A stretch of 64,000 nucleotides of DNA from Arthrobacter sp. Leaf234 (GTDB taxonomy: Bacteria; Actinomycetota; Actinomycetes; Actinomycetales; Micrococcaceae): the NCBI RefSeq assembly GCF_001422665.1, contig NZ_LMLU01000001.1, positions 1,576,732-1,640,731 of the forward strand, given 5' to 3'. The position numbers and the translations under genes are program-made. Positions 32,503 to 36,424 of this stretch are shown here, piece by piece. A model generated the notes under the pieces. It was not told where the DNA came from. It worked only from the letters and a program-made list of their open reading frames with translations, and did no database searches. Positions within the stretch are counted from its first letter, which is position 1. Each line of letters begins with the position of its first letter.

Positions 32503-33303
32503 TCAGATCTGTGGCGCGCGGAGGACCTGACCGGGCAGGAGGAGGGACGGGTCGTCCCCGATGATGGTTCGATTCGTGTCGTACCACGCGGGCCACGCCT
32601 CGGCGACATCGGCAGCGGTGCAGAGGGGGCCGAGGTGATGCTCGACGATGGACCAGAGAGAGTCCCCGGGCGCCACCACCACGGCCACGCGGTCAGGATC
32701 GGAGCGCGTCGGTGTCCGGACGAGCGGGCCTCCCGCTGTCGGCATCGGGGCCGGTTTCCATCCGGGCGAGACGGGAGTCCGATCGTCCGGCCCTGTCGCC
32801 GATGCGGCGGCGACGGGTACGGATGACCAGGAGGGGGATATGGCGAGCTTCGGTGCCGGATCCGCCGGGAGGGAGGACCCGACGCCCGCCGAAGGTGGTG
32901 GTCCCGCCTGCGCGTCCTGGAGAGGGACGGCCGTGGACGTCCGCACCATCGAGGACGGGTTCATCTGGGCGGCATGGGCGACGGCAGGCACGGTCACCAG
33001 GTTGATGCCGACGAGGGCGGCGGCGAGACGCCGCATGAGTGCAGGCGTGCACCGCTGCGCCAGCCGGGCTGCCGTCGACGGACCGCGGCGCAGGACCAGG
33101 TCGGTGGCGATGGCGACGAGGAGCGTGAGAACCCACCAGACGACGGCGACGACGCCCACGACCGATATCGCCACGCCGATGAACCCGTCGACGGACGTCC
33201 GATCGGGAGTGGTGGACATCGCTGCGAGAGCCCGTCCCGCAAGGGCCGCTACGCCGCCGCACACGAGGATCAACCCTGCTGAAAGTGCGTCCGTTCCGCT
33301 CAT
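32503..33303 (-). CDS. LysM-domain membrane protein
   Basis: Membrane protein with two N-terminal TM segments (about residues 8-30 and 41-70), a third hydrophobic segment near 93-112 (AAALVGINLVTVPAVAHA), and a Pro/Ser-rich extracytoplasmic linker. A C-terminal LysM-like domain follows (VVAPGDSLWSIVEHHLG ... LLLPGQVLRAP). It may bind peptidoglycan or link the membrane to the wall. ATG 33303 is chosen because GTGGAGGTCATC precedes it exactly; a GTG 12 nt earlier lacks an SD. The upstream intergenic region carries a phased TTTG repeat array. Confidence 0.82.
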   Translation of the reverse strand: MSGTDALSAGLILVCGGVAALAGRALAAMSTTPDRTSVDGFIGVAISVVGVVAVVWWVLTLLVAIATDLVLRRGPSTAARLAQRCTPALMRRLAAALVGINLVTVPAVAHAAQMNPSSMVRTSTAVPLQDAQAGPPPSAGVGSSLPADPAPKLAISPSWSSVPVAAASATGPDDRTPVSPGWKPAPMPTAGGPLVRTPTRSDPDRVAVVVAPGDSLWSIVEHHLGPLCTAADVAEAWPAWYDTNRTIIGDDPSLLLPGQVLRAPQI

Positions 33304-33320
33304 GATGACCTCCACTCTCA

Positions 33321-33380
33321 GTTTGATCTCATTTGATGCAGTTTGTCTACGTTTGATTCCTTCGAACCGGTTTGTAGCTC
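33321..33380. promoter_or_regulatory. 10-bp phased (G/A)TTTG direct-repeat array in a divergent promoter region
   Basis: Units at 33321 GTTTGATCTC, 33331 ATTTGATGCA, 33341 GTTTGTCTAC and 33351 GTTTGATTCC are spaced exactly 10 bp, with a further GTTTG at 33370. It lies between the LysM gene (minus) and the 33417 gene (plus) in an unusually AT-rich island. A likely operator for a head-to-tail binding regulator such as the nearby BldC-like protein. Confidence 0.6.
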
Positions 33381-33416
33381 GTTGACGATGCCCGGGTTCA
33401 GGCCTAGCGTGAACGC

Positions 33417-33977
33417 ATGCGATGGGATGCCCTGTTCACCGATCTGGAAGCACAGCTGCACTCCGCGTCTGTCGCGCACCGGGAGGGCGAGATCAGGGAC
33501 AGGACGCGGTCGGAACAGTCCCGGGTGACGATGTCGCAGAGGCTCATCGCCCAGATCGATCGGCACCTGTCCGTCTCGACGCGGGGCGGCAGGACGGTCT
33601 CCGGACGCGTGACCAATGTCGGCTCCGCGTGGGTCTCCCTGGTCGTCGAGGGCAGGTCGGTGGTCGTCCCGTTCACCGCAGTGCAGGTCCTACGCGAGCT
33701 CGACCGGGTGGCCGGTCAGCCGCTCACCGGGGTCGAGGCGAGACTCGGCTTCGGGTCGGTGCTCCGCGAGCTGTCCCGCGACCGGTCCGTCGTCGCGCTC
33801 TGGCTGGGGAGTCCGGCCGCGCAGGTCATCGGCGTGATCGAGCGCGTGGGCGCGGACTTCCTCGAACTCGGACTCTCGGGTGCGGGCCAGGATCGCAGGT
33901 CGTCGCAGGGCAGGGAAGGCCTGACCATCCCGTTCACCTCGATCGACACGGTCGACGCCGCGCACTCGGGGGCATGA
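33417..33977 (+). CDS. Conserved actinobacterial protein of unknown function
   Basis: Soluble 186-residue protein I do not recognise with certainty; similar actinobacterial proteins are sometimes labelled Fis-family regulators without support. It starts MRWDALFTDLEAQLHSA and has a coiled stretch (RDRTRSEQSRVTMSQRLIAQI). Then come repeated beta-strands that look like a small barrel duplicated twice (SGRVTNVGSAWVSLVVEGRSVVVPFTAV and VIGVIERVGADFLELGL...LTIPFTSIDTV). The two halves end in the similar phrases VVPFTAV and TIPFTSI. It lies divergent from the LysM gene across the phased repeat array. Confidence 0.65.
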   Translation: MRWDALFTDLEAQLHSASVAHREGEIRDRTRSEQSRVTMSQRLIAQIDRHLSVSTRGGRTVSGRVTNVGSAWVSLVVEGRSVVVPFTAVQVLRELDRVAGQPLTGVEARLGFGSVLRELSRDRSVVALWLGSPAAQVIGVIERVGADFLELGLSGAGQDRRSSQGREGLTIPFTSIDTVDAAHSGA

Positions 33978-33998
33978 GCGCTGCAGGGGAACCTGGGT

Positions 33999-34019
33999 GG
34001 TCGCCCTCCCCGGGCGACC
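33999..34019. terminator. Hairpin between convergent genes
   Basis: An 8-bp inverted repeat GGTCGCCC / GGGCGACC with a 5-nt loop lies between the stops at 33977 (plus) and 34028 (minus). Confidence 0.5.
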
Positions 34020-34027
34020 CGTGAAGC

Positions 34028-34255
34028 TCAGCGGACCTGCGGCGCTTCGCTCTCGGCCCTGAGCGCCGAGGCGGTCCTCTCGTAGGCCTGTGCTATGTAC
34101 TCCTCGAGAACGCGCGTCTCCACCCGCCACTGGCCGCGGCCGCCGACCTGGATCGCGGGGAGCTCGCCCGAACGGACGAGGGCGTAGGTCTGGGAGGAAC
34201 TGATGTTCAGCACCTCGCCGACGTCCGCGAGCGTGAGGAAACGTCGTTCGGCCAC
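34028..34255 (-). CDS. BldC/excisionase-type helix-turn-helix DNA-binding protein
   Basis: A 75-residue protein made almost entirely of a MerR-like winged HTH of the HTH_17/excisionase type. Segments: RFLTLADVGEVLNISSSQTYALVRSGELPAIQ, then the wing GRGQWRV and a C-terminal helix LEEYIAQAYERT. BldC of Streptomyces is the best-known relative; it binds AT-rich direct repeats as head-to-tail multimers. The GTG at 34255 is preceded by AAAGGCGG; longer in-frame extensions run into its own promoter region. A two- to four-unit phased repeat lies 68-107 nt upstream. Confidence 0.85.
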   Translation of the reverse strand: MAERRFLTLADVGEVLNISSSQTYALVRSGELPAIQVGGRGQWRVETRVLEEYIAQAYERTASALRAESEAPQVR

Positions 34256-34322
34256 GGGTCCGCCTTTCCTGGTCGGGTGTCGTCCTTGAACAGTCTGCCA
34301 TCGCACCAGCGCGGTCAGGCCG

Positions 34323-34362
34323 ACTTTCCACAGTTTGACCCGATTTGGCGCTCTTCGGTTCC
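34323..34362. promoter_or_regulatory. Second phased repeat array between the HTH and SAF genes
   Basis: Units GTTTGACCCG at 34333 and ATTTGGCGCT at 34343 are 10 bp apart. They are flanked in phase by weaker ACTTTCCACA (34323) and CTTCGGTTCC (34353). Same motif and spacing as at 33321, in the divergent region upstream of the HTH gene and the SAF gene. Confidence 0.5.
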
Positions 34363-34439: not shown

Positions 34440-35096
34440 GTGAGCATCGACGCGCGCACCACGCCATCGCCGGCCGAGGCACCGCGGCTGAGAAAGCCCT
34501 CCTGGAAGGATCCCCGGCTCCTCGTCGGGCTGCTGCTCGTGCTCGCGTCCACGACGGGGGTGATCGCCCTGCTCCAGAGCCAGGACATGACGACGCAGGT
34601 CTACTCCGCGCGCATGGATCTTCCCGTCGGAGCGACCCTGACGGCGGAGGATCTCGTCGCGATCCCCGTGCGCCTCGGCGACGCGGCGGGATCCTATCTA
34701 CCGGTCTCGGAGGGAATCCCGGAGGGCATGGTCGCGACACGGCTCGTCGCACGCGGCGAACTGGTGCCGTCCGCTGCCCTCGGGACCGCGGACGAGCTCG
34801 ACCGGAAGCCCGTCGGCCTCACGGTCGAGGATCCTCTGCCCACCGGAGCGGACGCCGGCGACCGGGTGGACGTCTGGATCTCCCTCCGGACCGACACGAA
34901 TACGTACGACGAACCGCGACTCCTGCTCGAAGCGGCCGAGATCGCCGAACTGACGGTCGGCGAGTCGGCCCTCGGCTCGAGCTCCTCGACCCTCGTGCAG
35001 GTCCTCGTCGAGGACGATGCCATGCCCGAGTTGCTCAACGCCCTGTCCAACGACGCCCGCATAGCCGTCGTGCTGGATCCTGGCGCCGGTTCGTGA
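34440..35096 (+). CDS. SAF-domain (CpaB-like) membrane protein
   Basis: Single-span protein of 218 residues. A short cytosolic N-terminus precedes a TM at about 27-46 (LLVGLLLVLASTTGVIALL). The SAF domain follows (VYSARMDLPVGATLTAEDLVAIPVRLGD, EGMVATRLVARGELVPSAAL), as in CpaB, the Tad pilus periplasmic protein. The GTG at 34440 is chosen for its GGGGGGAGA SD; in-frame codons upstream overlap the promoter array. The stop overlaps the CpaE-like gene start (GTGA). No other Tad genes (secretin, TadA, pilin) are nearby. Confidence 0.82.
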   Translation: MSIDARTTPSPAEAPRLRKPSWKDPRLLVGLLLVLASTTGVIALLQSQDMTTQVYSARMDLPVGATLTAEDLVAIPVRLGDAAGSYLPVSEGIPEGMVATRLVARGELVPSAALGTADELDRKPVGLTVEDPLPTGADAGDRVDVWISLRTDTNTYDEPRLLLEAAEIAELTVGESALGSSSSTLVQVLVEDDAMPELLNALSNDARIAVVLDPGAGS

Positions 35097-36424
35097 GCAT
35101 CCCGATCATCACGCTGGGCGCGACGGCAAGCGCCTACGTACCGGGCCTCGAACAGCTGCGCGGCCCGGTCACGGTCGTCCGACGGTGCGAGGACCTGCCG
35201 GAACTGATCGCGGCCTGCCAGACGGGCCTCGCGCGTGCGGTCGTCATCGCCCCCGGTGCCGCCGACCTGACAGTGAGCCTCGTCGACCGCCTGGCCTTCT
35301 CCGGAGTGGTGGTGGTCTCGCTGTACGACGGATTGCCGGACCCGGCCGCGGCAGTGTTGGACGGGGTCGACTACGTGCAGTCGTCGATCGCGCCCTCGGC
35401 ACTCGCCGACGCGGTGACCAGGGCTGTCGAGCGGTTCGACGCCACCTCGTCGGTCCGGCGAACGTCCCATGCGTATGCGGACCCGATAAATCTCTCCGCG
35501 GATCCCGTCACTCCGGAGGTCGAGCTCGCCGAGCCGCCGGGGGAGGGGCGCATCATCGCGGTCTGGGGTCCCACCGGCGCGCCCGGTCGCACGATCGTGG
35601 CGATCAACATGGCGGCCGAGCTTGCAGCGACCGGCGTCCCCGTCCTGCTGGTCGATGCCGATTCCTACGGCGCGAGCATCGGTGCGTCCCTCGGGCTCCT
35701 CGACGAGTCCGCCGGCCTCGCGCAGGCCTGCCGGATCGCAGATCAGGGTGGCTTCAACGGAACCGCTCTCGGGCGGATCTCGGTCAGTGTCGCCATCAAG
35801 GGCGGTCGGCTGCGGGTCCTGACCGGCATCACGAGACCTGATCGCTGGCCCGAGCTGCGTCCCGCCGCGCTCAGCCAGGTGTTCTCCGCCGCCCGCGCGC
35901 TGGCGGCGGTCACGGTGGTCGACTGTGGATTCTGCCTCGAGGCGGACGAGGAGCTGAGCTTTGATACCCTCGCACCCCGCCGCAACGGTGCAACGCTGCG
36001 CTGCCTCGAGGTCGCGGACACGGTGATAGCGGTGGGGTCGGCGGACGCCATCGGCGTGCCCCGCCTGGTCAAGGCGCTCGCCGAACTCGCCGACATGATC
36101 CCGGCGGCCGTACCGCACATCGTCTTCAACCGGGTCCGTGCCGCTGCCGTGGGCCGTGGGCCGGAGACGCAGCTGAGGGAGGCCTGGGAGCGCTTCGGTC
36201 CGGTTTCTGCCATCGAGGCCTTCCTGCCGGCGGATGCCTCCGCTGCGGACCAGGCGCTGCTCGCCGGCACGGCACTGCTCGAGACGTCACCGGCATCGCC
36301 GCTCCGCCTCGCCATCGCAGGACTCGCCGGTGTCCCGGCCGCCGAAGGGCGGCGCCGCGGTGGGCGTGTGTCCCGCGGACGCGACGTGAAGTTTGAGGTG
36401 AACCCCGATAGGGTTCAACGGTAA
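35093..36424 (+). CDS. CpaE/MinD-like P-loop ATPase with atypical Walker A
   Basis: 443-residue protein with an N-terminal receiver-like domain (residues 1-115, VVVVSLYDGLPDP) and a C-terminal SIMIBI ATPase domain, the CpaE arrangement. The deviant Walker A position reads GPTGAPGRTIVAINMAAEL: both lysines of KGGxGKT are absent (Thr and Arg). Walker A' is PVLLVDADSYGASIG, and a later VVDCGF strand follows. It may bind nucleotide weakly or act as a scaffold. It is coupled to the SAF gene by a GTGA overlap. Its 3' end carries the palindrome upstream of the GDH gene. Confidence 0.8.
   Translation: MSIPIITLGATASAYVPGLEQLRGPVTVVRRCEDLPELIAACQTGLARAVVIAPGAADLTVSLVDRLAFSGVVVVSLYDGLPDPAAAVLDGVDYVQSSIAPSALADAVTRAVERFDATSSVRRTSHAYADPINLSADPVTPEVELAEPPGEGRIIAVWGPTGAPGRTIVAINMAAELAATGVPVLLVDADSYGASIGASLGLLDESAGLAQACRIADQGGFNGTALGRISVSVAIKGGRLRVLTGITRPDRWPELRPAALSQVFSAARALAAVTVVDCGFCLEADEELSFDTLAPRRNGATLRCLEVADTVIAVGSADAIGVPRLVKALAELADMIPAAVPHIVFNRVRAAAVGRGPETQLREAWERFGPVSAIEAFLPADASAADQALLAGTALLETSPASPLRLAIAGLAGVPAAEGRRRGGRVSRGRDVKFEVNPDRVQR
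36399..36417. promoter_or_regulatory. Perfect palindrome upstream of NAD-GDH
   Basis: TGAACCC-N5-GGGTTCA, a 19-bp dyad overlapping the last codons of the CpaE-like gene, 55-73 nt before the GDH start. The length and symmetry suit a dimeric regulator operator rather than a terminator. Confidence 0.45.

Follow-up and report, generated by a model that had tools for sequence, protein, structure and literature searches.

The locus lies in a window of 64 kb (the whole stretch of DNA that was analysed) with a GC content of 69.5 %, and consists of a small gene cluster with two divergent gaps, each of which contains short repeats in helical phase. The genes and features are the following:

32503–33303, minus strand: gene of a membrane/LysM-like protein (ATG at 33303 taken as start; LysM match with E 0.027, below the cut-off)
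33321–33360, plus strand: array 1, four RTTTG units in 10-bp steps, in the gap that separates the divergent genes of the LysM protein and the unknown protein P4
33370–33379, plus strand: fifth GTTTG unit, one base off phase, 19 bp after the fourth unit
33382–33410, plus strand: proposed P4 promoter (TTGACG, 17-bp spacer, TAGCGT; ATG 6 nt further on)
33417–33977, plus strand: gene of the unknown protein P4
34028–34255, minus strand: gene of a winged helix-turn-helix (HTH) protein of 75 aa (HTH_17/excisionase-like), the proposed binder of the arrays
34333–34352, plus strand: array 2, two 10-bp units followed in phase by TTCGG, in the gap of the divergent HTH/SAF gene pair
34440–35096, plus strand: gene of a SAF-domain (RcpC/CpaB-like) protein
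35093–36424, plus strand: gene of a CpaE/ParA-like ATPase

The RTTTG units of array 1 start at 33321, 33331, 33341 and 33351, four units in exact 10-bp steps, and those of array 2 at 34333 and 34343 (two units, one 10-bp step; phased stretch 34333–34347). A previous sequence-only reading of this DNA had reported units at exactly these positions, including the off-phase GTTTG at 33370, and had placed the arrays in the divergent gaps between the LysM and unknown-protein genes and between the HTH gene and the SAF-CpaE pair; the gene coordinates agree with it. On both strands of the window only four TTTG pairs with a distance of 10 bp exist, three in array 1 and one in array 2, and TTTG pairs 4–30 bp apart show solely spacings of 10, 19, 20, 29 and 30 bp. 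The pattern RTTTG-N5-RTTTG-N5-RTTTG has two overlapping matches in the window and none in 100 shuffles, and a search of the 3.5-Mb genome returned the same two window matches and none for the reversed-pattern control, so that RTTTG triples at 10-bp spacing occur at one place, namely array 1; a genome scan for three or more TTTG units had been proposed in the earlier reading. Furthermore, a sequence-only array model of 34 positions, built from 51 arrays of other genomes (the array of the window was not in the training set), gave a single match at E ≤ 1 in the own genome (E 9e-4), which is array 1 at window 33319–33345; this genome-level search used stricter filters, by which some weak matches were lost. 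A chance origin of the arrays was rejected on the basis of the window shuffles, the reversed-pattern control in the genome, the spacing counts in relatives and the model search. Array 2 by itself is weak with its two TTTG units; scored with the unit matrix described below (row L001), it exceeds all of its 60 shuffles, and arrays of its class recur at the same place in relatives.

The position of array 1 is close to the LysM gene. Its distance to the ATG at 33303 is 17 bp, with a GGAGG in between, and over the loci examined the array lies a median of 21 bp (range 3–116) from the nearest plausible LysM-side start codon, found heuristically in 60 of 62 loci. On the other side, the −35 box of the proposed P4 promoter starts 21 bp past the fourth unit, and the P4 ATG 6 nt after TAGCGT suggests a leaderless mRNA. 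Similar hexamers are present by eye in relatives; a scan with a consensus promoter found no promoter. A second TTTG pair lies near the P4 start in five of six loci of one genus (g8), in two of them (L102, L103) around the −35 box as judged by eye, and the arrays at HTH promoters adjoin −10-like elements (by eye). This anatomy favours an action on DNA, and the position suggests that LysM would be repressed. Two further motifs were observed in the gaps: TGTCTA or TGTCCAGAG recurs between array and P4 in several genera and may be a reverse-strand LysM promoter element, and a TTTCCACA/TTATCCACA stretch, which is similar to a DnaA box, recurs beside array 2 (window 34325–34332), in relatives and upstream of HTH genes located outside the cluster. 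For the P4 protein of the window no Pfam family was found; single relatives give weak hints to an Sm/SH3-like barrel (DUF2642, SM-ATX, RimP C-terminal), and the N-terminus MRWDALFTD is invariant in eight aligned proteins.

The P4 gene was found in all 38 genomes of the genus (30 of them supplied the genus-level loci) and in 134 of 149 sampled genomes of the family. Conservation of the repeats was studied in 92 P4-upstream regions from 28 genera of the Micrococcaceae; one truncated locus (L051) was left out because of a misplaced upstream region. These regions contain 147 TTTG pairs at exactly 10 bp compared to a shuffle mean of 1.4 (maximum 5), counts which are not independent since many loci are related. 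Pairs at 20 bp (94) and 30 bp (35) are frequent as well, whereas 9 bp and 11 bp occur five and six times. There is also an excess of pairs at 19 bp (14) and 29 bp (20), as expected from an off-phase fifth unit. The 10-bp pair is located on the P4-sense strand in 75 of 92 regions and on the opposite strand in one, and 26 of 28 genera have a pair at 10 or 20 bp; the two without it (g9, g17) are represented by one genome each. The unit has a consensus of about GTTTGATGYN, in fuller form (C/T)(G/A)TTTGATG(T/C), and the bases after TTTG are A in 74 %, T in 79 % and G in 67 %. The comparison of relatives, for which the earlier reading had suggested an alignment, shows a conserved 10-bp phasing. Opposite-strand repeats with CATCAAA units exist in one locus of g4 (L125) and one of g17 (L132), where the sequence would be compatible with a possible inversion of the array. 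A looser search for triple TTTG in the genus (24 of 38 genomes) was set aside as the reversed pattern matched about 25 times as well, perhaps because GTTT also occurs within the unit.

Almost all arrays found in the family belong to this cluster. The pattern TTTGATGNNNTTTGATG gave 57 matches in 46 of 149 genomes versus one match for the reversed pattern, and all but six are inside the cluster as read from coordinates; four of these six are in predicted ORFs and two are intergenic. The array model matched in 132 of 149 genomes at E ≤ 1. Among the best 119 listed matches (E up to 0.05), 102 are upstream of P4, a share that is partly given by construction, since 51 P4-upstream arrays trained the model; 100 of them are on the P4 strand, with a median distance of 98 bp from the P4 start, and the two on the opposite strand fit reversed repeats of the L125/L132 type. 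At least six of the listed matches are upstream of the HTH gene, a lower bound because HTH positions came from 14 genomes, two of them approximate, and all six are opposite to the HTH strand, which is the orientation of array 2. The remaining 11 lie elsewhere, including three (G040, G010, G118) that belong to this cluster in genomes where P4 is absent or has diverged. Neither the rarity of matches elsewhere nor those upstream of the HTH gene are built in by the training. A genome-wide regulon in the family was rejected on the basis of these 11 of 119 listed matches, and equally phased arrays at random genomic places, which would have spoken against the earlier reading, are few among the listed model matches and the 57 pattern matches. 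The arrays are genuine: they form an element that looks like an operator, is strongly conserved and occurs almost exclusively at this locus.

Outside the family the array recurs. In the order TTTGATGNNNTTTGATG was found in 40 of 297 genomes, about 35 of these from other families, with no match of the reversed control. Thirty of the order-level loci were examined: 20 have cluster genes and ten have none of them, the latter being situated in predicted ORFs (three) or intergenic (seven, six of these from genus g37 of family f6). In these six genomes (L261–L266) TTTGATG pairs at 10 bp are found between genes, with no recognised cluster gene nearby. The best 30 P4 loci from nine other families possess a 10-bp pair in 22 cases, an incomplete locus with misplaced upstream region (L316) being scored as a miss; P4 loci of f2, f13 and f15 have none (0/4). 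Actinotalea (Cellulomonadaceae, L034) carries three full units between LysM and P4, and the gene order SecA-DUF6459-LysM-P4-HTH-SAF-CpaE(-GDH) is maintained in L033–L039 as well as in other families.

To analyse the association with the HTH gene, a unit matrix was derived from the arrays upstream of P4, and HTH-upstream regions were scored with it in comparison to shuffles (p < 0.05). An array is present in 52 of 108 of these regions, on one strand in 49 of the 52, and absent at this threshold in 56. The control regions upstream of D6459 (2/67), GDH (1/17) and CpaE (1/90), which may include near-identical loci, do not exceed chance. The former proposal that the HTH protein controls all genes of the cluster is thus too wide. 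Its other part, autoregulation, fares better, because arrays occur at HTH promoters and also at those of moved HTH genes in three genera, which by sequence argues for a self-control of the gene.

These moved genes are instructive. Inspected clusters of g11, g12, g18, g21, g23, g24, g28 and g31 are devoid of the HTH gene, and a homologue is encoded elsewhere in the genome (16 of 16 genomes). In several genera the unlinked HTH genes adjoin, by eye, a gene resembling AsnC-type regulators. Upstream of them an array was found in 14 of 33 regions at p < 0.05, 12 in the usual orientation, with a concentration in g18 (3/3), g24 (6/7) and g28 (2/2); g21 has two of five, both on the other strand, g23 one of seven, and g11, g12 and g31 together none of nine. 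Of the 17 SAF-upstream regions of HTH-less clusters, which come from 16 genomes, two contain an array. Array 2 thus accompanies the HTH gene and not SAF. A tree of the HTH proteins (66 columns, midpoint root, few forks resolved) groups 27 unlinked proteins with three cluster-linked ones of f3 and f13, at supports of 93/92 and 97/85, and is consistent with a relocation of the gene. The reverse case is less informative: five genomes without HTH match have no model match, compared to 12 without model match among the other 144, but since P4 and SAF matches are missing there too, the co-loss is weak evidence and does not single out the HTH gene. Natural deletions were observed in L221 (G038), L222, L223, L225 and L226, where no P4, HTH or SAF match is left. 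In L221 a CpaE remnant adjoins LysM. The LysM gene is without an array in L221, L225 and L226, and in L222 a single stray TTTG pair occurs.

The HTH protein itself is a small single-domain MerR-like winged HTH (HTH_17, E 2e-11) which also scores 34.5 bits with the excise domain TIGR01764, over the cut-off of 28.8. According to its predicted model (pLDDT 84.6) the fold is closest to BldC and Xis: BldC chains occupy ranks 1, 2, 5, 6 and 7 of the Foldseek results, none of them under E 0.001. PDB sequence searches with the protein or its alignment, up to E 10, gave no BldC match and nothing else of relevance.

We consider it fairly probable that the arrays are operators of this 75-residue protein, which would bind them head to tail and control LysM/P4 as well as its own gene in a circuit serving a competence module. 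The arrays might also be read by a different regulator of wide conservation, such as a response regulator of the type that binds direct repeats in tandem, or a true BldC orthologue, and the HTH gene would then be one target among others. The lack of an array at about half of the HTH promoters would agree with this, response regulators are named as other characterised binders of direct repeats (PMC5859096), and a 10- or 20-bp TTTG pair between LysM and P4/SAF is kept in 16 of 16 inspected genomes with HTH-less clusters. However, this last observation is still compatible with the HTH protein as binder because all 16 genomes have the unlinked homologue. Moreover, near-confinement of the family arrays to the cluster and the HTH promoter would be unusual for a global regulator, and the tandem geometry of one helical turn suits a BldC/Xis-like fold, as far as the predicted structure is concerned, so that we regard another regulator as rather unlikely. 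Intrinsic curvature or an UP-like element without a specific binder, as T3 tracts in 10-bp phase could suggest, is very improbable, since the tracts are short, the orientation is fixed (75/92 versus 1/92), and curvature does not require the G or the A-T-G after the T-tract, both of which are conserved. An action in RNA, with CAUCAAA repeats in the LysM leader as the target of an RNA-binding protein, for which the barrel protein P4 might be a candidate, would agree with the short distance to the LysM start codon and is nevertheless very improbable in view of the exact helical phasing, the second TTTG pairs at the apparently leaderless P4 and the arrays beside −10-like elements of HTH promoters.

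If the HTH protein is the binder, its monomers would occupy the 10-bp GTTTGATGYN units along the same face of the helix and, like BldC and lambda Xis, assemble into head-to-tail polymers; tandem arrays in one orientation are compatible with such an asymmetric oligomerisation. The filament on array 1 would mainly block LysM transcription, because the array starts beside the LysM start region and its fourth unit ends 21 bp before the P4 −35 box, and could also act on the P4 promoter. Array 2 at the HTH promoter would make the circuit self-limiting, and through it the divergent SAF-CpaE operon is perhaps affected too. The circuit as a whole probably sets a competence/Tad-pilus-like envelope module, as in Micrococcus luteus com expression rises or transformation falls when the counterpart HTH gene, the region 5′ of it or the SAF gene is altered (PMC8467076).

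This M. luteus counterpart is cluster 13 (Mlut_14640–14660), which matches by gene order and annotation: as here, a SAF/RcpC-CpaB gene with CpaE/TadZ behind it is transcribed divergently from an HTH_17 excisionase-family gene. Comparable gene orders are described for Geodermatophilus, Rothia, Jonesia and Cellulomonas (PMC8467076). Cluster 13 emerged in 2021 from a screen for com expression, in which every sequenced mutant showing elevated comEA/EC promoter activity, M33 excepted, carried a change in this cluster, either within the HTH or SAF gene or in the region 5′ of the former (PMC8467076). Re-made 13-M27 (SAF), 13-M93 (HTH R64W) and 13-M1090 reproduced the raised activity with unchanged transformation, whereas 13-M89 did not reproduce it and showed a transformation reduced about 100-fold. 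Deletion of the SAF gene increased com expression and lowered transformation 10^4-fold, and a deletion of the HTH gene Mlut_14660 was not obtained (PMC8467076). The authors proposed transcriptional interference and 5′UTR structure as explanations and called for tests of a binding of the HTH product to the comEA/EC promoter (PMC8467076). By analogy with these published genetics the cluster is linked to competence, and the view that its proteins have no assigned function, as expressed in the earlier reading, is out of date. The text of PMC8467076 does not contain the term 'direct repeat', which distinguishes it from the present description, and none of the six papers listed, of 202 matched by a literature search for the motif with repeats, contains the motif. 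The array as a direct comEA operator was rejected: three of 49 comEA-upstream regions contain it at p < 0.05, which is about chance; the furthest start codon served here as an approximate comEA start. If the HTH protein acts through the arrays, com is thus probably reached indirectly.

A conserved and exactly phased candidate operator makes the question of HTH binding testable at defined sites, and the comparative data point first to the LysM/P4 and HTH/SAF gaps rather than to comEA. They also bear on what PMC12849477 describes as remaining to be identified in M. luteus. It is conceivable, though we hold it for somewhat doubtful, that a new lineage of filament-forming winged HTH proteins exists throughout the Micrococcales, which would polymerise on 10-bp GTTTGATGYN arrays nearly restricted to its own module, would repress LysM/P4 and itself, would gate a Tad-like device for natural transformation, and whose operator would be the missing cis-element of actinobacterial competence control.

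Two groups of known proteins are closest. The excisionases Pukovnik Xis (4J2N), lambda Xis (2IEF) and RdfS (8DGL) share the HTH_17/excise domain and, by prediction, a similar fold, and some excisionases form filaments on DNA (PMC11963761). Unlike them, the HTH gene described here is chromosomal and syntenic in several families, and no integrase family was detected among six neighbouring proteins scanned. A paralogue in the own genome on contig C7 (L193, G000:C7:182383-188565) adjoins an integrase-like ORF by eye and could therefore be a genuine excisionase belonging to a mobile element. BldC of Streptomyces (PDB 6AMA, 6AMK) contacts DNA with Lys26, Arg30 and His46 and reads AATTXXXX(C) repeats of 9 bp on whiI and, on smeA-sffA, less strict tracts spaced by one helical turn (PMC5859096). 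The designation 'BldC-like' used before is a likeness and holds for the predicted fold, which resembles BldC and Xis. The candidate operator has a 10-bp GTTTGATGYN unit instead of AATT and a period of 10 bp rather than 9 bp (147 versus five pairs), while a relaxed mode as on smeA-sffA would be compatible with it. Finally, BldC is pleiotropic, whereas the arrays of the family are nearly confined to one cluster. The sequences compared here may also help to study how phased repeats could be recognised by a protein of the BldC/Xis type.
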